NCBI GenBank assembly: GCA_025357215.1
Contig: JANXPR010000578.1
Span: 1 to 41,086, forward strand
Reading direction: 5' to 3'
Length of the DNA: 41,086 nucleotides
Source: Acidobacteriaceae bacterium
GTDB lineage: Bacteria; Acidobacteriota; Terriglobia; Terriglobales; Acidobacteriaceae
Under the pieces are notes generated by a model. It did no database searches and was not told the origin of the DNA. It worked only from the letters and a program-made list of their open reading frames with translations. A program made the position numbers and the translations under genes. Shown one piece after another: positions 15,531 to 37,706 of this stretch. Every line of letters begins with the position of its first letter. Position 1 is the first letter of the stretch.

Positions 15531-15603
15531 CTTCAGAGTCCCTCCAAATGTGCGGGAAAACTCAAGTTTAGGCCGGATAGGGCAGGAGGGTCAATGGAAG
15601 ACC

Positions 15604-15639: not shown

Positions 15640-15655
15640 CAACGCCTTGTGGTCG
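15633..15655 (+). repeat. Inverted repeat, left copy (partner at 18559-18583)
   Basis: The 23 bases from cacccccc to cttgtggtcg here reappear inverted at 18559-18583, where the C-run is two bases longer and everything else matches. The two copies bracket the exported ExoX-like protein gene and the reverse transcriptase gene. The left copy overlaps the promoter-like element. Confidence 0.75.
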
Positions 15656-15721
15656 ACTCCCTTCGGCACCACAAGAGTGGAAAATGCGGATCTGAACAGC
15701 CCCCGCTTGGAGCGTTCTGCG

Positions 15722-15759
15722 GGGGGTAGGATCAGGGTGAAGCGCCAAAGTTATACTCC
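15722..15759 (-). promoter_or_regulatory. Second copy of the promoter-like element
   Basis: On the minus strand this reads gggagtataactttggcgcttc, then cctgatcctaccccc. The 14 bases aactttggcgcttc are identical to the copy at 29064-29098. It lies about 100 bases upstream of the copy at 15604-15639 in the same orientation, so the 505-residue gene has two tandem elements. Confidence 0.3.
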
Positions 15760-15834
15760 CTGTTGTTTAGAGCTGCGGAAGGAAAGAATACAAAATCACA
15801 GTCGTCCAGGCGTAGAATCTCCCTTGAATTGACT

Positions 15835-16689
15835 ATGACGCCTCGCTCCTTTTTACTGATATCGTTAATAGCTTTCTCAACCGGCTTCGATGCCAACAAG
15901 CCGGAACTGACGCAGCGCATCGGAGACTTGCGCGTAACGCTCTTGGGAACCAAACTACTTGAACCGGAAGCGACAAGCGATCACCATTTGGTGGTAATCC
16001 GATTTCGGGCGCAGAGCACCGCAAAGCAAGCACTTTGCGTTGGGTTCAGCGCAACACTTCAGGCAAGCTTCGGACTCCAATATCGCGGGTCAGTATCTCC
16101 CAAAGACCCTTTTAGGATCCGCGAATTGCTTCCTGGCGAAAACACCGAAGGCGAATACGAATTCTTTGTAAAGAATGGCTCAGACCCTCTGCGGGTCATC
16201 CTAAGGCCTACTGCCAAGACGCAGACGTGCAATCCAGAGAAGGATAGCTTTTCGGCAATCTGGCACACAGGTGATGAATTGAGATTCGATCTTTTGAGTT
16301 TGCCTGAAACTCCAATTACCGCTCAGCCGATCGCTTCAGGTGAATCACGTGGTAGCGAGCACGCCGGTGCTCATTCGGCTGTGGCAGATGCCCGCGCGTG
16401 CTGGGATGTCCTACAGGGCCAAGTTAATAAGTATGAAGACATACCGAAGACCGCTGCGGGAATAAGTGCGTATGTCGCGGAGCACAGAAAGAAAAGGGCC
16501 CTCGATTCTGGAGGCTGGTTCATTAGTAGGAATGGGAAACCGGCTCTCGCGCGAGGCAAGTATCAGGGAATGCTTATTCGTGAGATAGCGGAGTCGGATC
16601 CGGCCTACCTCGGCTGGATGATGTCCCTCGGGCTACCGAAAGATACCATCGACGTCATTAAGAGCGTGGTTCCAAATTTCCAAAAATAA
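15835..16689 (+). CDS. Exported protein with C-terminal ExoX/DUF3820-like motif
   Basis: This is a 284-residue protein. I chose the ATG at 15835 because it begins a signal peptide (MTPRSFLLISLIAFSTGFDA); the frame is open upstream to 15763. Residues ~25-160 are a beta-rich domain (IGDLRVTLLG, HHLVVIRFRAQ, ELLPGENTEGEYEFFV), resembling DUF4352-type immunoglobulin-like exported domains. After a linker the last ~45 residues read RGKYQGMLIREIAESDPAYLGW followed by MMSLGLPKDTI. This matches the 'GKykGxxlxeiaxxDPxYLxW' motif found at the C-terminus of exonuclease X-like and DUF3820 proteins. An ExoX-type nucleic-acid motif on an apparently exported protein is odd. It lies 55 bases before the reverse transcriptase gene on the same strand. 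Confidence 0.65.
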   Translation: MTPRSFLLISLIAFSTGFDANKPELTQRIGDLRVTLLGTKLLEPEATSDHHLVVIRFRAQSTAKQALCVGFSATLQASFGLQYRGSVSPKDPFRIRELLPGENTEGEYEFFVKNGSDPLRVILRPTAKTQTCNPEKDSFSAIWHTGDELRFDLLSLPETPITAQPIASGESRGSEHAGAHSAVADARACWDVLQGQVNKYEDIPKTAAGISAYVAEHRKKRALDSGGWFISRNGKPALARGKYQGMLIREIAESDPAYLGWMMSLGLPKDTIDVIKSVVPNFQK

Positions 16690-16744
16690 GAGTACTTGTT
16701 TCATGGAGAGCAGCCGAAGTCATAAACGCGAAACCGAGTAAACA

Positions 16745-17956
16745 ATGTCACTGCGCGACCTGTTGGCTAGAGGATATTTTCCCAAGGAATTACCGACGCC
16801 ATTCGTCACGGCATCGTTTGCGAAGTGCGTTAGTACAGCACATGCTTTGCCCGGCGATTTCGGCAAAAGTGCCGCCAACGGTAAGAAGTTGCCGGCCGCT
16901 CAAGCCTGCATGTACTCTCTAGCTCGTGGAGGTCTTCTTAGACGGCCACTCAGCATCTGCAATCCGCTGCACTATTTTCTTCTTTCCAAGGAAATAATCA
17001 ACAACTGGGTCTCAATTAAGCCGCGCGTTGCTGGATCCGCATTATCCGCGACCGCGCCCGAATTCAAGGTCAAAGGGCGCGCAATCGACGGAAAGCACCC
17101 GCAGAGCGCTCGCTCCCAATTTGCGCGGAACACCAGGTTGGGGCGACGTTACATTCTTCAAACGGATATCAATCGCTTTTACCACAGCATCTACACTCAT
17201 TCCATCTCGTGGGCTCTTCATACGAAACCGGTGGCCAAGGCGAACCATTCCCTGGCGCTTCTGGGAAACAAGCTCGACTACTGGATCAGAATGGGGCAGG
17301 ATCGGCAAACCGTCGGGATACCTATCGGGCCTGATACGTCGCTGCTTATGGCCGAGCTGATAATGCAACGATGCGACGAAACTCTGCTCCATGCTCTCCC
17401 AAAGTTACAAGGTCACCGCTTCATTGACGATTACGAACTCAGCTTCCAGACGCGAACCGAAGCTGAGGACGCATACCACTTGCTGGACGCTTCCCTAGCT
17501 GATTTTGAACTAGCTTTGAACCCGAAGAAAACTCGGGTTCTTGAACTGCCCCTTCCTTTGGAAGACCCATGGGTAACGGAACTAAGACAGTTCAAATTCT
17601 CGCGAGGTTCACAGCCAGGCCAGGCTGCCGACCTGAACAACTACTTCAGCAAGGCCTTTTCACTTCATGCCAGTAACCCAGGCGAACCAGTTCTCAGCTT
17701 TGCTGTAGCAAAATTCCGGGAAATGAAAATCGCCCCCGCAAATTGGTCCCTTTTCCAACAATTGATCCTTCTATGTGCAATCCCGGAGCCTGCCAGCTTT
17801 CCGTATGTGCTTGAGCAAATAATCATTCGAAAAAACGCAGGCGCCGCAGTACTTGTGCCGGAGCTAGAAGAGGTCGTAAATGAACTAATAGTGAGACATT
17901 CTGCACGTCGGCATTCGAGCGAAGTCGCCAATGCAGCGTGGGGTGCCTCGCACTGA
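16745..17956 (+). CDS. Abi/UG-type reverse transcriptase, polymerase part (frameshifted gene)
   Basis: These 403 residues hold a reverse transcriptase fold. Motif A is YILQTDINRFYHSIYTH (catalytic D141), the B region is GIPIGPDTSLLMAEL, motif C is HRFIDDYEL (D228, D229; FIDD in place of YADD), followed by LNPKKTRVLELP. The opening SLRDLLARGYFPKELPTPF and the non-canonical catalytic box point to the 'unknown group'/Abi-like RTs, several of which are defence RTs (DRT), rather than group II intron, retron or CRISPR RTs. I cannot assign a DRT type. The frame ends early at 17956, and its natural continuation lies in the -1 frame from 17941 to 18336. A missing G in the gggg run at 17940-17943 explains it: real mutation, sequencing error, or less likely programmed shifting. 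Confidence 0.82.
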   Translation: MSLRDLLARGYFPKELPTPFVTASFAKCVSTAHALPGDFGKSAANGKKLPAAQACMYSLARGGLLRRPLSICNPLHYFLLSKEIINNWVSIKPRVAGSALSATAPEFKVKGRAIDGKHPQSARSQFARNTRLGRRYILQTDINRFYHSIYTHSISWALHTKPVAKANHSLALLGNKLDYWIRMGQDRQTVGIPIGPDTSLLMAELIMQRCDETLLHALPKLQGHRFIDDYELSFQTRTEAEDAYHLLDASLADFELALNPKKTRVLELPLPLEDPWVTELRQFKFSRGSQPGQAADLNNYFSKAFSLHASNPGEPVLSFAVAKFREMKIAPANWSLFQQLILLCAIPEPASFPYVLEQIIIRKNAGAAVLVPELEEVVNELIVRHSARRHSSEVANAAWGASH

Positions 17957-18336
17957 ACCTGAAATTGCGCGACGCGGCCGTTGATGCCATCTCAGGATGT
18001 GACGATTCGGTCGTCGCGTTGTTAGCGCTCGACTGTGAGAAACATAAGTTGCTTTCAAAACCGCTTGACAAATCTATCTGGAACTCCCATATGACCGCCG
18101 ACGCACTCTACGAAAAGCACTGGCTTTTGGCGTATGAGGCTAATATTAAGAAGTGGTTGCCCAATAAAGGAGGAACCGATCATGTCCATAAAGACGCGAA
18201 CTTTGGATTCCTTAAGGCCAACAAAGTTTCATTCTATAATTCTCGGCTCGCCGCACCTGCGCGGCCTAAAGCAGCTAAGGTTCCTCTGCCCAAACTACCA
18301 ACTGTGGCCCAACTGATCACGTTTGCGGGCTATTGA
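17938..18336 (+). CDS. Reverse transcriptase C-terminal part, out of frame
   Basis: This segment encodes the C-terminal helical region of the preceding reverse transcriptase. From about 17941 it reads GCLALNLKLRDAAVDAIS, then DDSVVALLALDCEKHKLL, MTADALYEKHWLLAYEANIKKWLP and FGFLKANKVSFYN. This joins smoothly to EVANAAW at the end of the first frame if one base is added in the G-run at 17940-17943. A separate gene is unlikely: the segment has no ribosome-binding site at its GTG and its start lies inside the upstream frame. Helical C-terminal extensions of this size are usual in Abi/UG-type RTs. The reconstituted protein would be about 530 residues. Confidence 0.75.
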   Translation: MGCLALNLKLRDAAVDAISGCDDSVVALLALDCEKHKLLSKPLDKSIWNSHMTADALYEKHWLLAYEANIKKWLPNKGGTDHVHKDANFGFLKANKVSFYNSRLAAPARPKAAKVPLPKLPTVAQLITFAGY

Positions 18337-18415
18337 CTCGTATTCACCACTTCGATTTTCCCGTCGCCCAAGAGTTTTAATCCGACCTAACGCATGTGCC
18401 TGATACGGTCAGGGG

Positions 18416-18766
18416 TCATACGCAATTGACGATCGGGCCAGTAAGCTGCGCTATTGCGACATCGGCAGATCCATCGACATGCAACTGAGAAAAACCAATA
18501 CCGTCTGCACCCCACCAAGAGCTGTTGGATGGAGGAGGGGAAACTTGCTTGAAGTCCCCGACCACAAGGCGTTGGGGGGGGTGTTTCCGGGTCCATTCGT
18601 CAGCATAACCGTACTGCTTTCCAGAATCGCCAGTGATCAAGAAGATAAAGGGGCTGCTCTTGGGAGTGCTAATTCCTCCTTGTCGTTGTCCGCCAAACCT
18701 TTCATGCAGATCACGTCTGCGATATATTTGACCTGGCACAAAGGAGATATCCTTGTCTGTTTTCAC
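18416..18766 (-). pseudogene. Truncated ScoMcrA-like restriction nuclease N-terminus
   Basis: The first ~58 residues are a good N-terminus: FVPGQIYRRRDLHERFGGQR, then QGGISTPKSSPFIFLITG and DSGKQYGYADEW. The phrases YxRRdLHxxfGGqrqGGIsTP and GYxDgW are the opening of a common ScoMcrA/HNH-type modification-dependent restriction nuclease family. The GTG start at 18764-18766 has an aaggag site with good spacing. After ADEW the match stops abruptly and the frame runs through unrelated sequence to 18416. The break falls just beside the inverted repeat at 18559-18583. The SRA/HNH parts are missing, so the product should be inactive. It is a remnant of a gene deleted at the repeat. Confidence 0.75.
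18559..18583 (-). repeat. Inverted repeat, right copy (partner at 15633-15655)
   Basis: This is the inverted partner of 15633-15655, with two extra bases in its G/C run. It lies immediately beyond the point where the ScoMcrA-like coding sequence loses family similarity, so it marks a rearrangement breakpoint. Confidence 0.75.
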
Positions 18767-18854
18767 TAAGCACTCCTTGAGTTTTTTTTAGACAGTAGTG
18801 TACGTTTATTGAGTCACGGTAGCGATAGAACTTGTTACAAGGGGACTTTGGACG

Positions 18855-19355
18855 ATGATCAAGACCGGAACAAAGATATTCCTGCTATGTTTGACTCTGT
18901 GCAGCATCTGTATCGCTCAAGACACGCCGAAGCTTGGCTGGAAGCGGCTGGGGTCTGAATCCTTTGCCCTCAATGCGACCGAATCAAAGTATTTTGCATT
19001 GCCGAGGGGCAACCTGCGCCTCGAGTTTCAAGCCGAGGAGGCAATCTATACCGGAGTTCTGACGGCGCAACAGAAAGCAGCCTTGGATGGCAAATATTTA
19101 ACGTTGGAACATTTCAGGCAATTCCATTGTGTGAAGACGAGCATTTTGCAAGCCTCCTCCGACTGCAGAATTAATGCAAATAATGCTTTTCTGGCCATTC
19201 GAGACAAGAGGGGGCCGATAACGAAGCTAGCTGGCGCATACTCTACCGCAAAGCCGACTGGAGCAAGCGCGGGTCTTTCAGATCGGGCCAGCAAGCCCAA
19301 CAAGGTAGCCGTCACAGTCTATCTGTGGGCGTGTATCGATAACTGTCCAAAGTAG
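18855..19355 (+). CDS. Exported hypothetical protein
   Basis: This is a 166-residue protein starting MIKTGTKIFLLCLTLCSICIAQD, a signal peptide. The ATG has aagggg upstream. The mature part is short and mixed: WKRLGSESFALNATESKYFALPRGNLRLEFQAEEAIYTGVL, then CVKTSILQASSDCRIN with two cysteines, and VAVTVYLWACIDNCPK with two more at the end. Four cysteines suggest disulphides, fitting an exported protein. I recognise no family. It stands alone between the broken nuclease gene and the Cas1 operon end, inside the accessory island, and may be cargo. Confidence 0.55.
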   Translation: MIKTGTKIFLLCLTLCSICIAQDTPKLGWKRLGSESFALNATESKYFALPRGNLRLEFQAEEAIYTGVLTAQQKAALDGKYLTLEHFRQFHCVKTSILQASSDCRINANNAFLAIRDKRGPITKLAGAYSTAKPTGASAGLSDRASKPNKVAVTVYLWACIDNCPK

Positions 19356-19950
19356 GCTGATCGCGCCGCTTCAGGGATGAGGATGACCTATGCAGAAAGT
19401 TGCATGTAAAGAAGACACAATACTCGAAGAAGAATCACTCTTGGCCTTGATTTACTTCTTTGGAACGTTAGATGCCTGGGAGAAAAATCTCAAGACAAAG
19501 CAAGACCATCAGCGCGATTTCCAAATTCCGAGAGAAACAGAACCTGCGGAGGGCCGATTCCGCTCACGGACTTCTCGAGCTGCTTCGACTTTAGGCATTA
19601 CGGATGTAAAAAGCACTTTCTCGATCGGCTGATGCAACCAGGCCACGCTATCTAGATCGCGAATGAGCGTCGTGTCCCATTTGAACACGATCGCAGGAGC
19701 CCATTCGGCCGTCGCGGATTCGGGACGCCACCGAGTTCCAAGCAGAGTAGCTAGCTTCTTTTGTTGTGAGCTAGGCTCTGAGGCGTAGGCTAGCGGAGAC
19801 ACGCCATGAGAAGGACCCCAAGTATCTCCGGAAGAAATTACGGCAGGCGAAAAAGCGTTCGCGGAAAGGACGCGGATGATTCAAATGTACCTCACGCAGA
19901 AGCGCATCATGGGAAATGGAAATGGTAGCAATTTGGCTCAAGTTTCGATG
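19356..19950. other. Gap between the exported protein and cas1, mostly unassigned
   Basis: No convincing gene is present. A plus-strand frame from 19390 to 19632 (MQKVACKEDTILEEESLL...) has a start but no ribosome-binding site and no recognisable family. A short basic stretch at about 19803-19876 (HEKDPKYLRKKLRQAKKRS) ends in a stop and may be the tail of a lost gene. If the Cas1-PolB unit is a mobile element, its left end could lie here. I see no inverted or direct repeat matching the sequence after 26540. Confidence 0.4.
19509..19802 (-). CDS. Possible gene remnant, unknown
   Basis: This 97-residue frame contains protein-like text (WAPAIVFKWDTTLIRDLDSV, WLHQPIEKVLFTSVMPKVEA) that could be the middle of a larger, decayed protein. 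It has no clear ribosome-binding site or family, and it overlaps another weak frame on the opposite strand. It lies downstream of cas1 on the same strand. I include it only as a low-confidence remnant. Confidence 0.25.
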   Translation of the reverse strand: MSPLAYASEPSSQQKKLATLLGTRWRPESATAEWAPAIVFKWDTTLIRDLDSVAWLHQPIEKVLFTSVMPKVEAAREVRERNRPSAGSVSLGIWKSR

Positions 19951-21492
19951 CTAATGGGTCGAGTTCTTCTTCCGAAAAATTCCAGAGAGTTTCGCCAGTG
20001 CCTGCCAGTGCCTCGGATGCGGTTTCCGCTTTCCCGAGCGAATGTTTGACGCATAAACCTCCGAGACCGATAAGGCCGATGCAATGGCCGCAACAGTTAC
20101 TTGTCTGAGCCGAGGAAAAAGTTCTCTCTTGTATACGTCCGCGCTTAGCCACGTTGGTTGTCGAGACGAATCCCAAGAAGAGCGCTCAATCGCTTGCCGT
20201 CGCTGCGTACTAGCTCGCTTGGCCTGCGCCTCGGCGCTTTGGCATGTTAGCCTACCTTGTCTTGCAGTCTCGATCATTTGTTCCGTTGAGAAAGTTCGGC
20301 CGCAGTCCTGGCAGAATCTCTTGCCAATCCTGACCGGTTTTCCACAATATTGACAGAGCCTCTTAGGCCGGAATTCTGGTGACTGTGCGGGCTGTATAGA
20401 TGGATCGTGCACAAGCTTCCGCGAGGTTTGCGTCAGGCGAGTCGCTGGAGAGTCTCCGTTCGATCGCATTGCACTCCAAAAAGTCTTGCAGATCCACTCT
20501 GCCATGGGTCCAATCTCCTGAGCCCAGCGGGGAGCTGTCTGCGCCAACTGCTCGGCAAACGAATTCGTCAATCGGCAATTTCCATTTCTCTCTTCAAAGA
20601 ACCAGGCTCGCCTGAGCGGCTGACGAGCAATCCAGTCGAGGACGAAAAGATCTATTCGAGGCCGGAAGGCTTCCATCAAATCGCAAGCGAGACTATCGCG
20701 TCGCGGGGTGTCCATGTGTATCACTCCAAGCCCAGGGTCGAGTCCGAGTGTTGCCAAAGCAAGCCGGCATTCGGCCTCGAGAACTGCATACAGATAATTC
20801 AACATTGTGTTCGCCGGATTGGTGGCCAGGCGCTGGGACCCGGATATTTCTGACTTGCGGGTGCCGAAAACCTGCCAATGGTCGGGCACTCGTGGCCAAT
20901 CGTTCCTCGGGAAGCTGATCGGCATCATTCGCCACGCTGCCCAATATGCTCCTGCTGCTCGAGATTCAGCGACCCGAACGGCATCGAGAGAGTCAGCTTT
21001 TTCCAGTTCCGCTGCAAAGCTCGCTATTATCCGAGCTGCCTCAGCGTTGCACAGGTAGTCGCGCACCACTCTTTCTTGGCCACCAAGCTTTCGGCTGATG
21101 AGTTCCCGAGCGATCTTGAGATCGGAACCCGTTTGCGCGGCTAGAGCCTGGGCTCTTCTGAGGCGAGCGTCGGAAGGACTCACAGGACCCGATGTGGCAA
21201 TGACAAAACCATTGCGATCGAGCATGACGAACGATGCATCCTGGTCCGCGAGCCAGCGCAGAGCTGCTAGGGAAATGTTTCCGTCCGAGCCGACTACGAC
21301 GAGGCGCTTTAGTCCGTGACCAACGCGAGAAAACCTCGCTCGCCGCCGCGATCCTCCAACGCCATCTTCGAGAAGCAAATGTCCTCGATCGACTCGGGCT
21401 TGGATGCCGTAGCCAGAGAGGGTTATTACTCCCTCTTGTGGACTTAGCGGATTTTGTGACTTTGTAACGTGAATTAATGTTGTACTGGTCAC
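19951..21492 (-). CDS. cas1: Cas1-family integrase with C-terminal zinc ribbon and HTH
   Basis: This is a 513-residue protein. Residues 1-100 form the Cas1 beta domain. The catalytic helical domain holds ESRAAGAYW, the NPANTMLNYLYAVLEAEC segment, then LDPGLGVIHMDTPRRDSLACDLMEAFRP. The metal-binding triad fits E239, H259 and D271/E274, all intact. Beyond ~370 it carries extra modules not found in ordinary CRISPR Cas1: a Cys4 zinc ribbon (C380, C383, C394, C397) and a helix-turn-helix end (VTVAAIASALSVSEVYASNI, RSGKRKPHPRHWQAL). Such tails are known in casposases. The GTG start has a gggag site. No cas2 or CRISPR array lies nearby. It should integrate DNA ends into a target. The zinc-ribbon protein gene lies 63 bases upstream in the same operon. 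Confidence 0.9.
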   Translation of the reverse strand: MTSTTLIHVTKSQNPLSPQEGVITLSGYGIQARVDRGHLLLEDGVGGSRRRARFSRVGHGLKRLVVVGSDGNISLAALRWLADQDASFVMLDRNGFVIATSGPVSPSDARLRRAQALAAQTGSDLKIARELISRKLGGQERVVRDYLCNAEAARIIASFAAELEKADSLDAVRVAESRAAGAYWAAWRMMPISFPRNDWPRVPDHWQVFGTRKSEISGSQRLATNPANTMLNYLYAVLEAECRLALATLGLDPGLGVIHMDTPRRDSLACDLMEAFRPRIDLFVLDWIARQPLRRAWFFEERNGNCRLTNSFAEQLAQTAPRWAQEIGPMAEWICKTFWSAMRSNGDSPATRLTQTSRKLVHDPSIQPAQSPEFRPKRLCQYCGKPVRIGKRFCQDCGRTFSTEQMIETARQGRLTCQSAEAQAKRASTQRRQAIERSSWDSSRQPTWLSADVYKRELFPRLRQVTVAAIASALSVSEVYASNIRSGKRKPHPRHWQALAKLSGIFRKKNSTH

Positions 21493-21555
21493 GGATATGT
21501 ACTCTCCCTCGTGGGCTGATTGTCCATCATAAGAATCAAGATTTTCGGTTATCTG

Positions 21556-22083
21556 CTAGTGAATGAATGTATCGGAGCTGTAAAAGCCAAGAACGATCTT
21601 TGCTTCACAACGCGGACACGCGTGATTCCGCGAACGGCCTTTGTAGCCACAAGAGCATTCGATCCAATACTCGTACCTGATAATGGCAGTGGTTTTTTCG
21701 TCTTTCGTCCGCTGCTGGGCACAGATATCTCGCGATCGGCGTGGCGTAAGGGCTCCTGCGGCGGCCAGGGAGTCTGCGAGGAATCCAACTTGTGCTGGTC
21801 GCCGCTTGGGCCACTTTGGCTCCCGAATCACTTGCAGGGTTAACTCCACCAAATGCGGAACAAAGTTGCTCTCATAAGGCTGAGACCCTTCCTTAAAAGC
21901 TTGCGCCACACTCGCGACGTCCTGAGCTTCTGAAAGCAACGGCCAGAGTCGGTCCCACACTTGTCCAAGGATGAACCTTAAATTCCCCGATCGACCCGAG
22001 ATCTCGGTCGGGCGCATGCGTATGGGGCGGCCTCTCCCCCGTTTCTCAGAAAACGTGTCAATAGGTCTTTTGCGCTTACTCAT
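21556..22083 (-). CDS. Zinc-ribbon protein upstream of cas1
   Basis: This is a 175-residue protein from the ATG at 22083; a TTG at 22119 would add twelve residues. The start is very basic with an AT-hook-like RGRGRPIRMRP. The middle is helical (FILGQVWDRLWPLLSEAQDVASVAQAF). The end is a Cys4 cluster, ECSCGYKGRSRNHACPRCEA (C-x-C-x10-C-x2-C), a small zinc ribbon. The AT-hook-like patch and zinc ribbon suggest DNA binding, so it may be an accessory factor for Cas1 or a regulator of the divergent promoter. No named family recognised. It is the first gene of the leftward operon. Confidence 0.7.
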   Translation of the reverse strand: MSKRKRPIDTFSEKRGRGRPIRMRPTEISGRSGNLRFILGQVWDRLWPLLSEAQDVASVAQAFKEGSQPYESNFVPHLVELTLQVIREPKWPKRRPAQVGFLADSLAAAGALTPRRSRDICAQQRTKDEKTTAIIRYEYWIECSCGYKGRSRNHACPRCEAKIVLGFYSSDTFIH

Positions 22084-22321
22084 CGATTTCACCAATGGGT
22101 CATTTATGCGGAAAAACAAAGCATTTCTCGTCTAATTTTACGGAAAGTTTGAGGAATATGCTATGAGAATATGCGCAAGACATTTATTTACATTGGCTTG
22201 ACTCCGAAGGCCCGCCGGACTTGCAACTCAAAACCGACCGTATAATTCGAGCTGCCGGGACGGGTGTCACAAAGAGCCCGCTGTTAAGGCAAGAAAGAAG
22301 CTATCGATGTGAGGAGGACCC
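22084..22321. promoter_or_regulatory. Divergent promoter region of the Cas1 and polymerase operons
   Basis: This AT-richer gap separates the leftward zinc-ribbon/cas1 operon from the rightward HTH/HNH/polB operon. On the plus strand a perfect TATAAT stands at 22241-22246, about 75 bases before the TTG start at 22322; its -35 is poor. For the leftward operon TAAAAT occurs on the minus strand near 22133-22138, again with no good -35. The repeats gaatatgctatg and gagaatatgcgc around 22152-22177 could be protein-binding half-sites. No CRISPR-like repeat is present. Confidence 0.4.
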
Positions 22322-22885
22322 TTGAGACGCAAAGCACATAAGAAAAGATCAGCAAATCGGGGACGATCGAGAAGCGAGGGGCGCCGGGTCGCTCTTCCAA
22401 AGAACCTCAAACAGTATCTGCGCCTTCCGGAAGGGGACCAGGACCTCTGGAACCGCACAATGCACGTTGTTTCGAAGATGCGGTCGGAGCATCTTTCTCT
22501 TACGAAAGCGGCGCGGGAGTTTGGACTCGATCGCCAAACCGTTCTGCGACTAGCCAAATCAGCCCTACGGAAGAAAAGCAACGGGCAGTACGCGGCTCGA
22601 GCAACGGATAAGCTCTTGCGGGTCCTTGTGATCCCGACACCCGAAGGACTGTCCGAAATCGCACTCCGCAATTCCAGCCAGGCCAGCCTAGTCGGGGAAT
22701 ACTGGGCTGCGGTTCAGCGCTACCTCCAGACAGGCGACGACAACGGACTTCGAAGGTTTGAAGGAAAGCGCATCCGAGCAGCAAATCGCAAAGTAATTCG
22801 GCTCGTAACGGATGTTAAGGAACTCGACAGACTGGGTAACGCGGGAGTCCTGTCGTTTGAGTCTTTGTATGCGAGGGCATCATGA
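22322..22885 (+). CDS. Helix-turn-helix protein, first gene of the polB operon
   Basis: This is a 187-residue protein. The start is TTG with a strong gaggagg site at 22311-22317. A basic N-terminus (RRKAHKKRSANRGRSRSEGRR) leads into LWNRTMHVVSKMRSEHLSLTKAAREFGLDRQTVLRLAKSAL, where residues ~59-82 form a clear helix-turn-helix of the 'S-L-T-x-A-A-x-x-x-G-x-x-x-x-T-V' type. The rest (LLRVLVIPTPEGLSEIAL, EYWAAVQRYLQTGDDNGLRRFEGK) is conserved-looking but unnamed. It may be the operon regulator or a subunit that recognises the element's ends. HTH proteins are regular companions of Cas1 and PolB in casposons. Its stop overlaps the next gene by four bases. Confidence 0.75.
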   Translation: MRRKAHKKRSANRGRSRSEGRRVALPKNLKQYLRLPEGDQDLWNRTMHVVSKMRSEHLSLTKAAREFGLDRQTVLRLAKSALRKKSNGQYAARATDKLLRVLVIPTPEGLSEIALRNSSQASLVGEYWAAVQRYLQTGDDNGLRRFEGKRIRAANRKVIRLVTDVKELDRLGNAGVLSFESLYARAS

Positions 22886-23379
22886 ACAAATTGTCTGAAC
22901 AAGATCCGATCCAGGCATACCAGCGCAAAGCGACTGCAACCCGCCGGATTGGCAAAGGAAAGCAGTGTGCTTGCGGAGAACAAAGACCTGAAGCACTGAT
23001 TGCAGGCACTAATTCCGTTATTTGTGCTGCCTGCGAACGCAAGAATGAGGGAAAGAACACCATGGACAACCACCACGTATTTGGCAAATCGAACGATCCA
23101 ACAACGACGATTCCGATCAACGTTAACGACCATCGCGCCGAGCTGAGCGTCGCGCAACATGACTGGCCGAAAGAGACTCTGGAAAACCCCGACCGGAGTC
23201 CTCTGCTTGCAGGAGCCGCGAAGATTCGCGGGTTCACCGATACCATCGTTTTTTTGATTGAAAAAGGACTGCTGTGGATTGCAGAAATGCTCGAGGCCCT
23301 CAATGGGTTTTTGGTCGACACATTGGGCCAGAAATGGTGGATTGGAACGCCTCTGGCTCAATTTGCACCAAAGGGTTAA
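22882..23379 (+). CDS. Small Cys4 + HNH-type nuclease
   Basis: This is a 165-residue protein. Cys pairs at 29/31 and 48/51 (CAC ... CAAC) form a zinc-binding knuckle around the HNH-like core MDNHHVFGKSNDPTTTIPIN, then VNDHRAEL. H64/H65, N71 and H84 are candidates for the catalytic and metal residues (DxHHVxGxxN ... NxH). The final third (IVFLIEKGLLWIAEMLEALNGFLV) is strongly hydrophobic/amphipathic and is not part of HNH families I know. It starts inside the stop of the HTH gene (ATGA) and ends five bases before polB, so all three are co-translated. It would cut DNA. HNH nucleases are a recurring casposon component. Confidence 0.75.
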   Translation: MNKLSEQDPIQAYQRKATATRRIGKGKQCACGEQRPEALIAGTNSVICAACERKNEGKNTMDNHHVFGKSNDPTTTIPINVNDHRAELSVAQHDWPKETLENPDRSPLLAGAAKIRGFTDTIVFLIEKGLLWIAEMLEALNGFLVDTLGQKWWIGTPLAQFAPKG

Positions 23380-23384
23380 ACGAC

Positions 23385-26300
23385 ATGTCCAAGAACGAGG
23401 CGGTTCCAATATCGATTGCGGTCCGCGTCTACCCAAACGGCGCTGACCGGAAGGAGAGAAAACAATCCGGGCAACAGAGACCTACAGCAATGCTGGTTTT
23501 CGATACCGAAACATCGACTGACCCAACGCAACGTTTGCTTTTCGGAAGCTATCGCTTTGTCGTAGATGGGAAGTGTCGAGAAGAAGGACTGTTTTATGCG
23601 GACGATCTAGCCGAGGACGACCGCAAGACCCTCGAGGGATACGCCAGCTCGCACGAAGCTGATGCCCACAAGAAGAAGCTGCGGCTCCTCACTCGAAAGG
23701 AATTCCTAGTCAGGTTCTACAAGGCCGCGTACAAGGGACGCTGTCTGGTTGTTGGCTTCAATCTTCCTTTTGATTTGTCGCGGCTTGCGGTCGATGTCAA
23801 GACAGCAAGGGGGCGTTTCGCTGGCGGGTTTTCTCTTGGACTCTGGACATTTGCTAACGGCAAGGGCCAAGAGTTGCCGAGCATGCACAGGCCACGTATC
23901 GGGATCAAACAGATCGACAGCAAACGAGCGTTGAAGGGCTTTACTAGCAGGAGCACTCCCGACGCTGTTGATCTGATTCCAGACGACTCGACGACGGGGG
24001 AACCGGAAAAAGGGTTCAAGTTTCGCGGACACTTTCTGGATCTGCGCACTCTGGCCTTTGCCCTGACCGATCGTAGCTATTCGCTCGAATCGGCTTGCGT
24101 TGCATTCGGTGTCGAACATGCCAAGCAGAGAGCGGCACGCCATGCCCAGATTAACGATGAGTACATCGCTTACAACCGGCGGGACGTCCAGGCCACGGCG
24201 GAATTGGCAGAAAAACTTCTGGAAGAGTACGACAAGCATCCGATCTCACTGCAAGAAACACGAGCGTACTCGCCGGCTTCGATCGGCAAGGCCTACCTGC
24301 ACGCGATGGGAGTCACGCCTGTCCTTGAGCGTCAGGCTGATTTCCCGAAAGAGTATCTGGGTTTTGCCCAGACGGCATTTATTGGTGGAAGGACGAGCGC
24401 CCACATTCGCAAAGTCGCGGTCCCTGTCGTGTACACGGATTTCTTGTCGATGTATCCCACGGTGAATAACTTGATGAACTTATGGAGCCTCGTGATTGCA
24501 AGGCAAGTTGGTGTCAGACACTGCAAGGCAGAAATTGAAAAGTTTCTCAGTCGCTTGACTGCTGATGATCTCTTGAAGCCTGAGACTTGGAATGGACTCG
24601 CCGCGTTCGTTAAGGTTGTTCCGAATGGCGACATTCTGCCTTCGCGTGCCAAATACAGCGAACACAGCAACGACTGGCAGGTCGGGGTGAACTACCTGTA
24701 TGCGAGCGCAGACAATGCCCTTTGGTTCTCACTCCCTGATGTCGTCGCATCTGTGCTGCTGAGCGGCCGTGTGCCGAAGATCGTAGATGCTTTCCGCATC
24801 GAGCCTGAAGGGACTCTGTCTGGTCTCCAGCGCGTAAAGCTTCGCGGAACCGTTGAAGTCGATCCTGCGAAGCAGGACTTCTTCAAAGCTGTAATTGAAG
24901 AACGCAAGAGGTGTAAGCAGCGTACAGATCTTGAATCATCAGAGCGAGATCGGCTGGATAAGGCTCTCAAAGTGCTCGCGAATGCAACCAGCTACGGTAT
25001 CTATGCTGAGATGAATCGCCGAGAAGGCGACCGCGCAACTCGCGTTGCATGCCACGGCATCGATGCCGAGCCGTTCACTTGTCAGGTCGCCAACCCCGAT
25101 ATGCCTGGGGAGTATTGCTTTCCTCCTCTTGCGGCTCTGATCACCGGAGGCGCTCGACTGATGCTTGCTCTGCTCGAATACTGCGTACGGGAGCAGGGAG
25201 GGACATATGCCATGGAAGATACCGACTCCATGGCCATTGTTGCGACGAAAGATGGCGGATGCGTTCCTTGCAACGGGACCAAACTAAAGGCGCTGACTTG
25301 GGAACAGGTACGAGGCATTGTTGACCGCTTTGCGAACCTCAACCCATATGACAGGACGGTAATACCGGGCTCAATTCTCAAAATTGAGAGTGACAATTTC
25401 GAGCCCAAGACAGGTCTGCAGCGCCAGGTGTACTGCCTGGCAATTTCGGCCAAGCGCTACGCTCTGTTCGTGACGGACCATAAGGGACTGCCTGTTTTAC
25501 TGCGCAAAGGGGTAAACAATGAGGACGACCGTTGGTCGGAGCATGGCCTTGGACACTTGCTGAATCCAACCGACTCCCAGAGCGAGGATCGGGAGTGGAT
25601 TGCCCAGGTCTGGCATCATTTGATATGCAAATCTCTGGGACTGTCTTCAAGACGATTGGCATTTGCTGACCGGCCTGCCGTCGGCAGGGTCACTGTCAGC
25701 AGCCCTGCAGTCGCGAGGCCTTTGGCGAATTTGAATTCTGGCAAAAGCTATCCAAGACAAATTAAGCCATTCAATTTCCTGCTGTCATGTCACACGATGC
25801 CTTTGGGCAATCCTATCGGGACCGACCCGACCCGATTTCATTTGATCGGGCCTTACGAAACGGATGCAAGAAAATGGTCAGAAACCCAGTGGATTGACCA
25901 ATACTCGGGTAAGTTGTACCGGATCACAACGACCGATTTGCAGAACCGTTTTACAGCTCGTGTAAAGACCTACGGTGACGTTGTCACCGAATACGAATTT
26001 CATCCCGAGCCAAAGTGTGCTGATTCTGATGGGCTTCCGTGCGGTAAACAGACGGTCGGACTCCTCCACCGTCGCCATGTGCTCGTCGAGGGCATCACTT
26101 ATATCGGGAAAGAGTCAAACAGTCTGGAAGAAGTCGACCAAGGGCTAGTTCATTCCTACGACAACGTGTACACGGAATATCCCGACCTTCGTCGCGACGA
26201 ATGGCAAACCAAGATTCTTCCGGTCTTGAAGACTGTGTCTTTGCAAACACTTCAAGAGCTGACTGGCTTCTCCCGTCGTGCGTTGATTTATGCGAGGAAA

Positions 26301-26504
26301 GGCAGCAAACGACCTCACAAGAGAAATCAAATAGTTCTCACCGCGATCGCAAAGCAGTTTGCGGCAAGCGATCACGAGTCGAGCCAACAAGGAGGGAGAA
26401 CACAATGCCGTACAAAAACCCTGAAGACAAACGCCGTTGGGAAAGAGAACACCGAGCACAACGTAATGCTCAACGTCGGGCTCAGCGGTCAAACTTTGCC
26501 CTGA
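23385..26504 (+). CDS. Family B DNA polymerase with C-terminal HTH
   Basis: This is a 1039-residue DNA polymerase. The 3'-5' exonuclease motifs are intact: FDTETS (D40, E42), GFNLPFDLSRLA (~123) and YNRRDV (~263). The polymerase motifs are also present: YTDFLSMYPTVN (motif A, ~350), LANATSYGIYAEM (motif B, ~532) and MEDTDSMAI (motif C, ~611). Long thumb and C-terminal regions follow, ending (~940-990) in ILPVLKTVSLQTLQELTGF, SRRALIYARKGSKRPHKR, an HTH-like module that strongly resembles the end of the Cas1 protein. It is neither PolA nor the usual E. coli Pol II. The ATG at 23385 is taken because the frame upstream lies within the HNH gene. It would replicate the element or fill gaps after Cas1 integration. 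The last ~40 residues overlap another gene and are low complexity. Confidence 0.9.
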   Translation: MSKNEAVPISIAVRVYPNGADRKERKQSGQQRPTAMLVFDTETSTDPTQRLLFGSYRFVVDGKCREEGLFYADDLAEDDRKTLEGYASSHEADAHKKKLRLLTRKEFLVRFYKAAYKGRCLVVGFNLPFDLSRLAVDVKTARGRFAGGFSLGLWTFANGKGQELPSMHRPRIGIKQIDSKRALKGFTSRSTPDAVDLIPDDSTTGEPEKGFKFRGHFLDLRTLAFALTDRSYSLESACVAFGVEHAKQRAARHAQINDEYIAYNRRDVQATAELAEKLLEEYDKHPISLQETRAYSPASIGKAYLHAMGVTPVLERQADFPKEYLGFAQTAFIGGRTSAHIRKVAVPVVYTDFLSMYPTVNNLMNLWSLVIARQVGVRHCKAEIEKFLSRLTADDLLKPETWNGLAAFVKVVPNGDILPSRAKYSEHSNDWQVGVNYLYASADNALWFSLPDVVASVLLSGRVPKIVDAFRIEPEGTLSGLQRVKLRGTVEVDPAKQDFFKAVIEERKRCKQRTDLESSERDRLDKALKVLANATSYGIYAEMNRREGDRATRVACHGIDAEPFTCQVANPDMPGEYCFPPLAALITGGARLMLALLEYCVREQGGTYAMEDTDSMAIVATKDGGCVPCNGTKLKALTWEQVRGIVDRFANLNPYDRTVIPGSILKIESDNFEPKTGLQRQVYCLAISAKRYALFVTDHKGLPVLLRKGVNNEDDRWSEHGLGHLLNPTDSQSEDREWIAQVWHHLICKSLGLSSRRLAFADRPAVGRVTVSSPAVARPLANLNSGKSYPRQIKPFNFLLSCHTMPLGNPIGTDPTRFHLIGPYETDARKWSETQWIDQYSGKLYRITTTDLQNRFTARVKTYGDVVTEYEFHPEPKCADSDGLPCGKQTVGLLHRRHVLVEGITYIGKESNSLEEVDQGLVHSYDNVYTEYPDLRRDEWQTKILPVLKTVSLQTLQELTGFSRRALIYARKGSKRPHKRNQIVLTAIAKQFAASDHESSQQGGRTQCRTKTLKTNAVGKENTEHNVMLNVGLSGQTLP

Positions 26505-26539
26505 AGCGACGGTCGAATTGCATTCACATCAGCCAGTGA
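26405..26539 (+). CDS. 44-aa basic protein overlapping the polB end
   Basis: This short gene is in another frame of the last 100 bases of polB. A very good aaggagggag site stands nine bases or so before the ATG at 26405. The product opens MPYKNPEDKRRWEREHRAQR and continues NAQRRAQRSNFALKRRSN, highly basic and helical. 'MPYKxPExxRxxxRxxR' is a start I know from small mobile-element and phage proteins, often ahead of HNH or zinc-finger domains. Here only that leader is left. The strong translation signal makes it likely real. It could bind DNA or RNA, or be a truncated nuclease leader. Confidence 0.6.
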   Translation: MPYKNPEDKRRWEREHRAQRNAQRRAQRSNFALKRRSNCIHISQ

Positions 26540-26681
26540 AGAGTACATGGAAAACAGGCCTCAGACTCGCGATTGGCCTCGGAATCGCAGTGATTACTGC
26601 TCTCTCTGGAGTCAGAATATCAAAGGTCGGGCGGGATCTTTGAACAATTGGGGCGTCAATTCTGGCGGAACTCGATGTATT

Positions 26682-27836
26682 ATGTGCGAATCTATGCCGG
26701 AGTCGAGAAAGATCTTCCTCGTCGTTGCTGGTGGTAACGCAGCCGCGCAGCGAAATTTTGAAGACACGATTCAACGGAAACGCACAGTAGCGGAAGTCAG
26801 AACATTCTTGCCAGTCCAGCAAATTGACAACTTAGAAAAGATTTATCACGGCTCAAGTTTTATTGTCTGGGGGTCGGTTCCCGGCCCAATGAATGAATCG
26901 CGCTGGGAAAAGATGAAACCCGGAGATGTGGTTCTGATCTACAACAACGGTCGCATTCGTTTCGCTGGCGAGATCGCGGCTAAAGTGAGAAATCGAGACT
27001 TGGCTCGCTATTTTTGGCAAGAAGACCCGACCGGAAGCACCTGGGAATTCATGTATTTCATCGTAAACGAGGAGAGAACAGACGTTCCGTTCGAGAAGTT
27101 GAATCCGTTGTTTGATTACCAGGAGCACTATCGGCCCCAAGGCCTTTCCATGATCAACGAAGAGGCGGTTTCAGCGTTCGCCGAGAATTATGGCGACATT
27201 CTCGGAGTGCTCAAGAGACTCGAACGAGGGGAAGAGTTGATTCATCTACCCTCGCGCAAAGAACAGCTCATTGAGCAAATTGACGAGCGAATCGACCGCG
27301 TGTCCACAGAGCATGATGAGATGCAGTGGAGATTAATTCGCTTGGGGCAACTTGCAAAATGTGATGTCTGGGTTCCCCGGAACGACCAACCAAAGGAATA
27401 CCATGGGTACCGTTTTCGTGATTTCGTACTGAAAGAATTCCATGAAACTTTGGATGTGCCGCGCAGCATTGAGAATATTGATGTTGTCTGGAAATTTGGA
27501 CCTTATTCGATAAGATCCGCTTTTGAAATTGAGCATTCAACCTCGGTCTATTCAGGGATTCTCAGATTGTCGGACCTTCGCTCAGAAGCTCCGAACTCGA
27601 ACTATCCTTTGTTCATCGTTGCATCCGAGGATCGACGAAAGAAGGTTTTCGATGAATTGAGGCGGCCAACGTTTTCAGGTCCGTGTTTACGTCTAAACGA
27701 GGTGATTAGATTCTTGGGCTACCAGACGCTTCGCGAAATCGATGAGAGGTCGAAGGAGTCAGCAAGTTTCGATACGAACATCTTGATGACAACAAGCGAG
27801 CCAGTTCCGCAAGCCAATGCACGTAAATTCAGATAA
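26682..27836 (+). CDS. EVE/PUA-like + PD-(D/E)XK-like restriction-type protein
   Basis: This is a 384-residue protein from the ATG at 26682; a Met at 26694 (MPESRKIFLVVAGG) is equally possible, and the frame is open upstream to 26547. The N-terminal half has EVE/PUA-like phrasing: KPGDVVLIYNNGRIRFAGEI, AAKVRNRDLARYFW, WEFMYFIVNEERTDVPFEKL. The C-terminal half has ENIDVVWKFGPYSIRSAFEI, EHSTSVYSGILRLSDL and RRPTF, where Asp followed by FEIEH gives the D...ExE core of a PD-(D/E)XK nuclease. EVE-like readers fused to nucleases occur in type IV, modification-dependent restriction, so cleavage of modified phage DNA is a reasonable guess. It follows the Cas1-PolB unit but has its own gap and may be separate cargo. 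Confidence 0.6.
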   Translation: MCESMPESRKIFLVVAGGNAAAQRNFEDTIQRKRTVAEVRTFLPVQQIDNLEKIYHGSSFIVWGSVPGPMNESRWEKMKPGDVVLIYNNGRIRFAGEIAAKVRNRDLARYFWQEDPTGSTWEFMYFIVNEERTDVPFEKLNPLFDYQEHYRPQGLSMINEEAVSAFAENYGDILGVLKRLERGEELIHLPSRKEQLIEQIDERIDRVSTEHDEMQWRLIRLGQLAKCDVWVPRNDQPKEYHGYRFRDFVLKEFHETLDVPRSIENIDVVWKFGPYSIRSAFEIEHSTSVYSGILRLSDLRSEAPNSNYPLFIVASEDRRKKVFDELRRPTFSGPCLRLNEVIRFLGYQTLREIDERSKESASFDTNILMTTSEPVPQANARKFR

Positions 27837-27888
27837 TCGAATTGACACTCAGGTTTCCCTGCGACACAATCTTGACGGAATTCCTCCA

Positions 27889-28974
27889 ATGGTCAATCAA
27901 AGCGTGTTGAAGATCGTCATTTCAGCTTTCATGCTTTACTGTCCAGTATTGGGAGCCGCCGATGACGCCACTCACGTCTACGAGAAGGCCTCGGCGGGTA
28001 TCGTACTCATTAAGACTGACAAGGGTGCAGGAACGGGATTCACGGTTTCAGGAGATGGAACCATTGTCACGGCGCGCCACGTCGTTGACGGGGCCACAAA
28101 GGTAGCGATCAAGACTCAATCTGGAGATATTTACGATGATGTGTCGATCGTAGCGGAAGACGAGCGCCGCGACATTGCAATCCTAAAGATTAACGGGTTC
28201 GATCTGCCAATTGTGAGTTTGGGGAATTCAAATGATGTAAAGCCCGGCGATCGCATTTTCGTCATCGGCAATCCGCTTGGTGCTGAAAAGCTAAAGGCTT
28301 CCATCTCGGACGGAATTGTTTCGGGCCTGAGGGACTTAGAAGAAGGCTACAAAGTTCTACAGCTGACTGCGCCAGTGTCTCCAGGTAACAGCGGCGGCCC
28401 AGTGTTAAACGAATCTGGGCAGGCCATCGGGATCATCGTATTTCGCCTACGGGAAGGCGAGAATCTTAATTTTGCGGTCCCGATTAACTATGTACGCGGT
28501 CTCCTTGCTTCTAGCGAAAAATCTCAGCCTCTGCGGTCATGGAAGAAACCGGAGGGAACTACAAGCCTTTTTTCCGAAAAAGTAACGCTGCAGCCCGGAA
28601 AGTGGAAGTCAGCAAAAACGGGCGCAGTGTGGTCGGTTCGAATCCAGACCGACCACCTTTATGCCGAAAAGGAAGAACCTGAAGAAGCTCGGAAGCTTGG
28701 GGCTTTCCAGACGCTTGAAACGAAGAAGAAGGGCAACAAGTACGTTGGTTCGATTCACACCTCCTATGTGCATTGGGTAATGAATCGCATTACTGGTGAA
28801 AAGATTGTTAATAAGAGCTGTACCGTCGATTTCCTTGTTGAGATAAGTGTTGTTTCCTCAGATCGTATCGAAGGACGCCAGTTTCTCCCACTTCCGAACG
28901 CAAAATTTGACTCCAAAAGATGTAGGTTTTTAGGCGATCCAGCATGGCAAGACCTTGTCCTCATTCCAGAGTGA
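27889..28974 (+). CDS. Exported HtrA-like trypsin-family serine protease without PDZ
   Basis: This is a 361-residue protein. The ATG at 27889 starts a signal peptide (VNQSVLKIVISAFMLYCPVLGAAD). The protease domain has a full triad: His in VTARHVVDG, Asp in ERRDIAILKI and Ser in SPGNSGGPVL. LGNSNDVKPGDRIFVIGNPLG is typical of the DegP/HtrA group. No PDZ domain follows. The C-terminal ~130 residues are a different, beta-rich domain with two cysteines, not recognised. So it is a protease plus sensor-like domain rather than classic DegP. It follows the restriction-type gene by 52 bases on the same strand and is the last gene of the island. Confidence 0.82.
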   Translation: MVNQSVLKIVISAFMLYCPVLGAADDATHVYEKASAGIVLIKTDKGAGTGFTVSGDGTIVTARHVVDGATKVAIKTQSGDIYDDVSIVAEDERRDIAILKINGFDLPIVSLGNSNDVKPGDRIFVIGNPLGAEKLKASISDGIVSGLRDLEEGYKVLQLTAPVSPGNSGGPVLNESGQAIGIIVFRLREGENLNFAVPINYVRGLLASSEKSQPLRSWKKPEGTTSLFSEKVTLQPGKWKSAKTGAVWSVRIQTDHLYAEKEEPEEARKLGAFQTLETKKKGNKYVGSIHTSYVHWVMNRITGEKIVNKSCTVDFLVEISVVSSDRIEGRQFLPLPNAKFDSKRCRFLGDPAWQDLVLIPE

Positions 28975-29063
28975 TAGCAAGTTTCGCTGTTGCTGACCGC
29001 TTCGCAATCTCACTCGCTGGGACGCTTAAGTCGTGCGCTGCGCCGGGGCCCCGGCTGCGACTG

Positions 29064-29098
29064 GGGGTGCAACTTTGGCGCTTCCTGTAGCCTATCCC
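29064..29098 (+). promoter_or_regulatory. Promoter-like element upstream of the M28 peptidase
   Basis: This plus-strand copy reads ggggtgcaactttggcg, then cttcctgtagcctatccc, about 90 bases before the peptidase start. It is an inverted match (three mismatches) to 15604-15639 and shares 14 identical bases with 15722-15759. Just before it, at 29043-29054, is the perfect palindrome ccggggccccgg. Confidence 0.4.
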
Positions 29099-29186
29099 AC
29101 GCACCGTTTGACCCCTCCCCTCGCTCCATTTAAACTTCCTGCCCGACCCTGCAATGACTCTCTGCGCGATGGAAAAAGGAGTAGAT

Positions 29187-30890
29187 ATGATGACGTCCCG
29201 GCGGCTTGCCGCCTTTGTTCTGGCACTCTTTCTCTCATGTACCTTCAGCACGGCCCTGGCCCAGGAAAAAGCCGACCTGGATGCGATCTCCAAGATCCGC
29301 TATGAAGGCTTCCGCAATTCCAAGATCATGGAACTGGCCACCGGATTGATGGACCAGATTGGGCCGCGGCTTACCGGCTCACCCAACATGCGCAAGGCGA
29401 ATGACTGGACGCGCGCCAAGCTGGAAGAGTTGGGCATGTCCAACTCTCACCTGGAACCGTGGAGTCCGTTCGGCGTGGGCTGGTCGAACGAATACACCAG
29501 CGTGAACATGATTTCTCCGGACCACGCTCCGCTGCTGGCCTACGCCAAGGCCTGGACACCCGGCACCAACGGTCCGGTGAAGGCGCAGGTGATCCGCGTG
29601 ATTATCCGCGGTCCGCAGGACGTGGCCAAGTACAAAGGCAAGCTGGCGGGAAAAATTCTGCTGATCGGTGACGATGCGGACGTAAAGATGTCCACAACAC
29701 CTTTGGCCGAACGCTATGACGACAAGAAGCTGGCCGAAGAAGCCAACTACGAAATTCCCGGCGACCGCAACGATGCCCGCTTCCGCGAATTTGTCCAGCG
29801 CGCCCGCATGCAGCGCGAGTTAAACAAATTCATCGACAGCGAAAAACCCGTGGCGATGATTGACCACAGCCGCGGCGCCATCAACGGCGGAACGGTCTTC
29901 GTGCAGCAAGGCGGATCGTACAAACAAGGCCTGACGGCGGCCACTCCGCAACTGACCATGGCCACCGAACACTGGGACCGCATTGCGCGCATTCTGGCGG
30001 CGAAGAAAGAAGTTGAACTCGAAATCAACGTCAAAAACAACTTCTATGACGATGCGATGACCCAGAACAACACGATTGCCGAGATCCCCGGAACCGATAA
30101 AAAAGACGAAGTGGTTATGCTGGGCGCGCACCTGGATTCCTGGCACACCGGCACAGGAGCCACCGACAACGGCGCTGGCACAATCGTGATGATGGAAGCC
30201 ATGCGCATACTGAAAGCCGTGGGCGTGAAGCCACGGAGAACGATCCGCATTGGCCTGTGGAGCGGCGAAGAAGAAGGACTGCTGGGCTCGCAGTGGTATG
30301 TGGCACAGCATTTTGGTTCGCGGCCGGAATCGAAAGATCCCGAGCGCAAGGGCGACCCAACGGTGCTGCGTCGCGATACCGGCCCGATGACGGTGAAGCC
30401 CGATCAAGCGAAAGTTTCCGCGTACTTCAACGTAGACAACGGCAGCGGTAAAATTCGCGGAATTTACATGCAGGAAAACGCGCAAGTGGAGCCGATCTTT
30501 GCAGCCTGGATGAAACCTTTCCACGATCTGGGCATGGACACGCTGACCATGCGCAACACCGGCGGCACCGACCATCTTTCATTTGACGCCGCCGGCATTC
30601 CGGGATTCCAGTTCATACAAGACCCGCTGGAATACGACACGCGTACGCACCACTCCAACATGGACGTATACGACCGCTTGCAGCCGGAAGACTTGAAACA
30701 AGCCGCGGTGATTGTGGCGTCATTCGTGTACATGGCCGCGCAGCGCGACCAGATGTTCCCGCGCAAACCGATCGAGAAGGAACTGCCTCCGCCTCCGCCG
30801 CCGGAAGAGGAAGCGGCACCGGCTCCTGCGGCAGCTACTCCGGCTGCTGCGCCAGTTGCTAATCCGCCGGCGAAGCCGCCGTTGAATTAG
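29187..30890 (+). CDS. Exported M28-family metallopeptidase
   Basis: This 567-residue protein would be an aminopeptidase or carboxypeptidase-type zinc enzyme acting outside the cytoplasm. I place the start at 29187 because aaaggag lies right before it and the signal peptide (RRLAAFVLALFLSCTFSTALAQ) follows. The co-catalytic zinc ligands are in order: LGAHLDSW (His), GATDNGAG (Asp), SGEEEGLLGS (Glu, with the catalytic Glu beside it), YFNVDNGSG (Asp) and YDTRTHHSNMD (His). A PA-type insert likely occupies residues ~130-260. The C-terminal ~45 residues are Pro/Glu/Ala-rich (PPPPPPEEEAAPAPAAATPA), a disordered tail unusual for the family. It appears monocistronic with a hairpin terminator. Confidence 0.9.
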   Translation: MMTSRRLAAFVLALFLSCTFSTALAQEKADLDAISKIRYEGFRNSKIMELATGLMDQIGPRLTGSPNMRKANDWTRAKLEELGMSNSHLEPWSPFGVGWSNEYTSVNMISPDHAPLLAYAKAWTPGTNGPVKAQVIRVIIRGPQDVAKYKGKLAGKILLIGDDADVKMSTTPLAERYDDKKLAEEANYEIPGDRNDARFREFVQRARMQRELNKFIDSEKPVAMIDHSRGAINGGTVFVQQGGSYKQGLTAATPQLTMATEHWDRIARILAAKKEVELEINVKNNFYDDAMTQNNTIAEIPGTDKKDEVVMLGAHLDSWHTGTGATDNGAGTIVMMEAMRILKAVGVKPRRTIRIGLWSGEEEGLLGSQWYVAQHFGSRPESKDPERKGDPTVLRRDTGPMTVKPDQAKVSAYFNVDNGSGKIRGIYMQENAQVEPIFAAWMKPFHDLGMDTLTMRNTGGTDHLSFDAAGIPGFQFIQDPLEYDTRTHHSNMDVYDRLQPEDLKQAAVIVASFVYMAAQRDQMFPRKPIEKELPPPPPPEEEAAPAPAAATPAAAPVANPPAKPPLN

Positions 30891-37687: not shown

Positions 37688-37706
37688 CCGATGCTGCCTC
37701 AGCCCC

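Follow-up and report, generated by a model that had tools for sequence, protein, structure and literature searches.

What does a Cas1 gene do next to a family B DNA polymerase when Cas2 and arrays of clustered regularly interspaced short palindromic repeats (CRISPR) are missing? We asked this of contig JANXPR010000578.1 (41,086 nucleotides; hereafter the window) from the assembly GCA_025357215.1 of an Acidobacteriaceae bacterium. Casposons are mobile elements whose insertion is carried out by Cas1, which is also the enzyme that records CRISPR memories, and they are the proposed source of CRISPR adaptation; to our knowledge, few bacterial casposons have been described. The original prediction had placed at 19951-26539 two divergent gene sets for Cas1, a zinc-ribbon protein, a helix-turn-helix (HTH) protein, an HNH-like protein, a family B DNA polymerase (PolB) and a 44-aa open reading frame (ORF), all of which we found. 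It had left the choice between a casposon, an immobilised relative and a stand-alone system. We find that the window holds a complete casposon of a soil acidobacterium, by gene content closest to the bacterial family 3 and drawn from a large Acidobacteriota group. We are highly confident that this group inserts at N9-TTGAC sequences at the −35 boxes of sigma70 promoters, forms stacks there and carries anti-phage cargo.

The element is larger than first proposed, spanning 15604-29098 (13,495 bp). No obvious terminal inverted repeats (TIRs) had been seen, but they exist 4.3 kb and 2.6 kb outside the initial interval: the left TIR (15604-15639, plus strand, GGGATAGGCTACAGCAGCCGCCAAAGTTGCACCCCC) pairs with the right TIR (29063-29098, minus strand) at 33 of 36 nt. 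The lower G+C of the island agrees with these limits. A search for TIRs near the Cas1 and PolB stop codons found none because the true ends are kilobases away. We also rejected a TIR inside the last 60 nt of the Cas1 gene, for which intact elements have no partner at the PolB end and which lies within the true TIRs; DNA conservation at the Cas1 3' end fits HTH coding sequence together with relics of older copies. Bounds drawn from thrS synteny alone were likewise abandoned, as a variable region blurred the limits. Immediately outside the TIRs lie two 14-bp target copies. The TTGAC of copy A (15590-15603; minus strand, GGTCTTCCATTGAC) serves as −35 box for the gene at 14013-15530 (minus strand, DUF4932/TPR protein), with TAAACT 18 bp downstream. 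That of copy B (29099-29112; plus strand, ACGCACCGTTTGAC) is the −35 box of the M28 peptidase gene at 29154-30890 (plus strand), with TAAACT 17 bp downstream.

The same gene order had been suggested as a check, and we found it widely. Many Acidobacteriota share the divergent layout, with Cas1 on one side and the HTH, HNH and PolB genes on the other, and more distant examples come from Chloroflexota, Actinomycetota and Gemmatimonadota. A single-sequence search of genome contigs returned no relatives, and a profile search of the same contigs found them. Viral contigs gave one remote match only, and plasmids gave only remote Cas1 matches (~26-35% identity) that were annotated as CRISPR Cas1 where annotated at all. 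The genes adjoining the unit change from locus to locus and decayed copies are frequent, as expected for a mobile element; the unit is not tied to a single conserved locus.

Element ends were first recognised at three Edaphobacter isolate loci beside tRNA-Gln, where a direct repeat flanks the inverted repeats. Loci were then searched systematically for a TIR combined with a 14-bp direct repeat (at most one mismatch), with no target sequence required; this detected a TIR with an exact 14-bp target site duplication (TSD) at 16 of 69 non-redundant loci, the sole exact-repeat matches there. In these 16 elements the first 16 TIR bases pair with at most one mismatch; a 17th (L050) combines a gapped TIR with an exact 14-bp TSD. 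TIRs of the group begin with GGG, and the elements are 5.1-17.1 kb long. As a control, the left flank of one locus was combined with the right flank of another after removal of duplicate loci, and 3 of 4,692 combinations gave matches. Two of these came from loci with enormous match counts, attributed to runs of N, and one joined L116 and L105 of a single metagenome-assembled genome (MAG), which may belong to one element, as its two ends, or to two elements that recombined.

All 17 duplications read N9-TTGAC, although this sequence had not been selected for. Beyond TTGAC comes a −10-like hexamer at 17-18 bp and then a host gene or tRNA; the exception is L099, where another element rather than a host gene lies on the TTGAC side. 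Targets include thrS (L036), tRNA-Gln (L104, L109, L123) and tRNA-Arg (L075), among others, and the valS promoter was hit in L083, L092, L094 and L098, with elements in both orientations. The mean −10 score was 5.4 in 12 independent promoters (both of those in the window included) vs −1.3 for 2,354 other TTGACs of the same loci, and no resampling out of 100,000 reached 5.4 (permutation p < 1e-5). These comparisons show TTGAC to be the first five bases of the −35 hexamer of a sigma70-type promoter. Since the duplication ends after the fifth −35 base, the promoter-side copy retains the whole promoter, and the comparisons show that the host promoter remains intact on the gene side after insertion.

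An empty site was found in E. aggregans DSM 19364 (L186), in which tRNA-Gln adjoins the neighbouring gene with a single GTCAA-containing target between them. At this tRNA-Gln promoter, three other Edaphobacter genomes have elements together with two copies of the target. The same neighbouring gene comes after the element in L109 and L123; in L104 the end of a second element comes after the first, and the neighbouring gene is on the opposite side of the tRNA. The empty site shows that insertion took place in the past. A query with the joined tRNA-Gln site in the window's family returned tRNA matches only.

Nine of the 17 elements adjoin another element across one common 14-bp repeat. In seven (L083, L089, L092, L097, L098, L101 and L104), the sequence past the distal repeat scores 15-28 as an element end, compared with a maximum of 6 among 150 random segments. 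The distal neighbour in L094 scores 11, and the neighbour in L099 sits on the promoter side. Past L094, two copies of the same repeat enclose a complete 5.3-kb element in which no Cas1 is recognisable; this valS array reads repeat, 5.3-kb element, repeat, casposon, repeat, promoter. The stacks show the intact Cas1 element normally lying beside the promoter. The simplest reading is that a new element enters at the regenerated promoter-side copy, which would place the newest nearest the promoter. Tandem casposons were known earlier (PMC4046053); the available text does not report a promoter or such polarity.

The genome contains two Cas1 genes above the Pfam cut-off, both of casposon type. The second casposon is split by the assembly into positions 1-6422 of L046 (contig C216) and 1-3158 of L047 (contig C435). 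Its Cas1 is ~59% identical to that of the window, and it has cargo of its own, with a glycoside-hydrolase-like ORF adjoining Cas1. Its ends carry exactly the window targets, crosswise: copy A is matched at the end of C435 (L047 3159-3172) and copy B at the end of C216 (L046 6423-6436). In each of the seven relatives in which both genes flanking the window element could be located, the two lie on separate contigs. Together with the crosswise targets, this leads us to conclude that two casposons stand, or stood, at two promoters and that their halves were exchanged, either in the cell or by the assembler, so that the 13.5-kb element is a hybrid of two insertions or mis-joined. For the window, we put the chances of an assembly error, as opposed to recombination in the cell, at about even. 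In favour of an error, the source MAG consists of 593 contigs, C216 and C435 both start inside the homologous core, one of them with 25 identical bases, and the flanking genes lie apart in the seven relatives. Against it, the copies diverge strongly where both can be read, as the Cas1 identity indicates, so that an assembler would be less prone to join them wrongly, and copies of mobile elements often recombine. Separately, we observed that L105 (~1120-1431) and L116 (~3624-3934), the contigs of one MAG encountered in the control, have a common casposon-adjacent flank beside repeat-protein genes and a matching TIR/TSD pair across contigs, possibly a swapped or split element.

Cas1 (19951-21492, minus strand; Pfam PF01867, E=2.8e-45) ends in a zinc ribbon and an HTH. 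By known Cas1 motifs we take its residues E176, H259 and D271 to be the catalytic triad. They do not vary across 12 relatives, and they align with the Methanosarcina mazei casposase 6OPM, which is also the best solved-structure match of this Cas1; the catalytic residues are thus intact, as predicted. C380, C383, C394 and C397 of the zinc ribbon are invariant as well. Upstream lies a zinc-ribbon-like protein (21556-22119, minus strand), conserved in several relatives. On the other side, the HTH protein (22322-22885, plus strand) is modelled with a predicted winged-helix-like N-terminal domain (predicted local distance difference test 89); its best structural neighbours are all weak (Z up to 5.3) and mostly winged-helix-like. 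The product of 22882-23379 (plus strand) had been called a Cys4/HNH nuclease: the motif can be seen by eye, whereas the assignment drew no Pfam or PHROG match. PolB (~23385-26504, plus strand), which has a C-terminal HTH-like region, matches Pfam and PHROG weakly; its start was set downstream of the HNH-like gene, and the longest ORF begins at 23274. The exonuclease and polymerase motifs claimed for it fall in columns conserved over 8 relatives, and its profile found no match to solved structures at E 0.001. The 44-aa basic protein (26405-26539, plus strand) is conserved in the second copy of the genome. No Cas2 was found in the assembly, which is 92% complete and leaves absence elsewhere unproved, and no CRISPR-like array in the window, in agreement with the prediction. 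A search of six loci against Rfam gave no match.

The element thus combines what defines a casposon: an intact Cas1 with neither cas2 nor a CRISPR array, PolB and TIRs. Casposon TSDs measure ~15 bp; here they are exactly 14 bp in 17 relatives, and each window copy has its partner in the second copy. The cas2 and CRISPR array near cas1 that mark a CRISPR-Cas adaptation module were not found. Its bacterial host, HNH (by eye only) and HTH genes, and zinc-binding and HTH regions fused to Cas1 are the gene content of family 3. In the available sections of Krupovic et al. 2014 (PMC4046053), the family 3 casposons AceAut-C1 and NitAL212-C1 likewise have Cas1, PolB, HNH, an HTH protein, TIRs and TSDs, and the Cas1 of AceAut-C1, like that in the window, carries zinc-binding and HTH domains as a C-terminal fusion; those sections report neither targeting of promoters nor stacking next to a promoter for family 3. 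Family 2 of Euryarchaeota (A. boonei, M. mazei) shares HTHs at both the Cas1 and PolB C-termini, HNH and HTH genes, a TSD median of 15 bp, site-specific insertion beside housekeeping genes (tRNA) and a leader outside the TSD that decides the site (PMC4046053, PMC6614799). It differs in its host domain, in targeting tRNA gene 3' ends rather than −35 boxes, and in that no zinc ribbon is noted in its Cas1. Adaptation by CRISPR Cas1-Cas2 has the same Cas1 chemistry and array growth at the leader end with a short repeat duplicated, whereas the group described here lacks Cas2 and CRISPR RNA (crRNA) and its units are 5-17 kb elements with TIRs. Tn7 also inserts site-specifically while sparing a housekeeping gene, and tandem islands are known (PMC4046053), but its transposase is unrelated and its target is the glmS 3' end. 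A full-text search for casposons with Acidobacteria retrieved one paper, on soil cas1 genes. None of the papers, as listed, points to a promoter target for casposons; most subscription journals and bioRxiv lie outside the scope of that search, and an earlier description is possible. Promoter targeting and polarised stacking of casposons appear to be new within this scope.

How might such insertion work? In published work, TIR DNA is integrated by casposases at a place set by a leader that lies outside the duplicated site (PMC6614799, PMC9939771). We propose that Cas1 would link the ends of the element to the target, starting where the promoter meets the duplicated site, just as the A. boonei casposase starts at its leader border; the promoter would take the leader's role. 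The site may be marked by an element-encoded HTH, whether on Cas1, on PolB or in the separate HTH protein, or by the host RNA polymerase holoenzyme. Because each insertion would regenerate the site beside the promoter, the next element would land between the last one and the promoter. PolB could copy the element or repair gaps. Elements would persist because the host gene is spared and anti-phage genes are carried. We tested the HTH protein as a mimic of sigma region 4 and found no support (hhalign probability 1.9%, no sigma factor among the structural matches listed).

Several observations weigh against insertion at promoters by a casposon group. The target copies in the window do not match one another, and the insertion history there is read from contigs of a fragmented MAG. 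The Cas1 tree places the relatives in a clade of their own apart from CRISPR Cas1 (96/99) and does not group them with the one casposase reference included, which sits on a long branch. Most loci gave no TIR/TSD call, mainly owing to early contig ends or decayed copies. The candidate promoter-recognising factors are several and none is singled out, and mobility is deduced from sequence comparison, with no element seen moving.

The same casposons might read only TTGAC with little flank, the −10 being present because selection removes insertions at other TTGACs, which damage genes. TTGAC is the sole invariant part of the target and selection against gene disruption is certain to act; yet insertion at most intergenic TTGACs that lack a −10 should do no harm, while 12 of 12 independent targets have a correctly spaced −10-like hexamer, and we regard this explanation as improbable. 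Guidance by the host RNA polymerase-sigma70 holoenzyme on the promoter, through contact or DNA structure instead of an element protein, would account for a target that needs both promoter boxes and for the named targets, housekeeping and tRNA promoters that are likely to be occupied much of the time; the HTH protein, moreover, shows no relation to sigma region 4. No direct evidence backs this guidance, the element itself encodes three HTH regions that could serve as readers, and in vitro the casposases of A. boonei and N. koreensis work by themselves (PMC6614799), so we hold it to be a tentative possibility, somewhat doubtful. That an immobilised Cas1-PolB unit is kept as a stand-alone system for defence or DNA capture, an option left by the original prediction, fits the anti-phage genes alongside and the lack of a CRISPR array. 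It is contradicted by the TIRs, the TSDs, the many chromosomal sites in both orientations, the two genome copies, the empty orthologous site, the stacks, and defence genes that differ per element like cargo, and we consider it extremely unlikely. We return to the casposon reading: these elements probably recognise sigma70 promoters and, at the −35 box, build stacks that are polarised, separated by repeats and made up of elements bearing defence genes. We lean, with similar assurance, towards such stacks being a present-day parallel to the proposed transition from transposon insertion to CRISPR array growth, with the promoter as leader.

The cargo of the window element flanks the core on both sides. 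At 16745-18336 (plus strand) lies a frameshift-split, DRT4-type defence reverse transcriptase, two overlapping ORFs of which (403 and 132 aa) match consecutive parts of one PADLOC model (Drt4, E=1.5e-148 for model positions 1-403 and 4.7e-33 for 402-507); the frameshift is either programmed or an error. An ORF at 15763-16689 (plus strand) has a weak ExoX-like C-terminal match just below the Pfam cut-off. Beyond PolB lie a protein with a restriction-enzyme-like region (26547-27836, plus strand; PADLOC REase_II, E=2.5e-8) and a trypsin-like protease (27817-28974, plus strand; PF13365, E=7.3e-33). Other elements carry type III restriction-modification (L109), type IIG (L099 stack), or a DNA methyltransferase with PADLOC candidate families (L036, L183). 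Defence genes vary between elements, as cargo does. The cargo of the group appears rich in anti-phage genes, with the defence activity suggested by family membership. The element at L183 104-5441 has TIRs and the same 14-bp repeat, but no Cas1 could be recognised in it; its genes include those for a DNA methyltransferase and a PADLOC PDC-S64 protein, and it is perhaps a non-autonomous element mobilised by casposons.

These data describe a large bacterial casposon group for which the ends are exact, the target rule is precise, an empty site is known and isolate hosts exist, and target choice can therefore be tested at the bench. Insertion at the −35 box while the promoter is spared is an unusual way of living in a genome, the stacks, newest element nearest the promoter, recall the way CRISPR arrays grow at the leader end, and the anti-phage cargo suggests one route by which defence islands assemble.

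Some further loci deserve mention. In L040 (6273-6899), L048 (3698-4249), L051 (1563-2183) and L054 (10301-10864), fragments correspond to the Cas1 zinc-ribbon and HTH end alone; several begin near residue 350, and they are relics or a separate DNA-binding protein. In L095 (1051-8023), three partial PolB genes stand in a row, one directly followed by sequence like the Cas1 3' end, probably the remains of nested or stacked casposons. In L099 (9550-10197), an ORF that by eye resembles an IS110-type transposase runs into the Cas1 frame, and the Cas1 N-terminus there looks replaced. Outside the element in the window, at 37706-38062, two tandem copies of a 178-bp unit are 93% alike.

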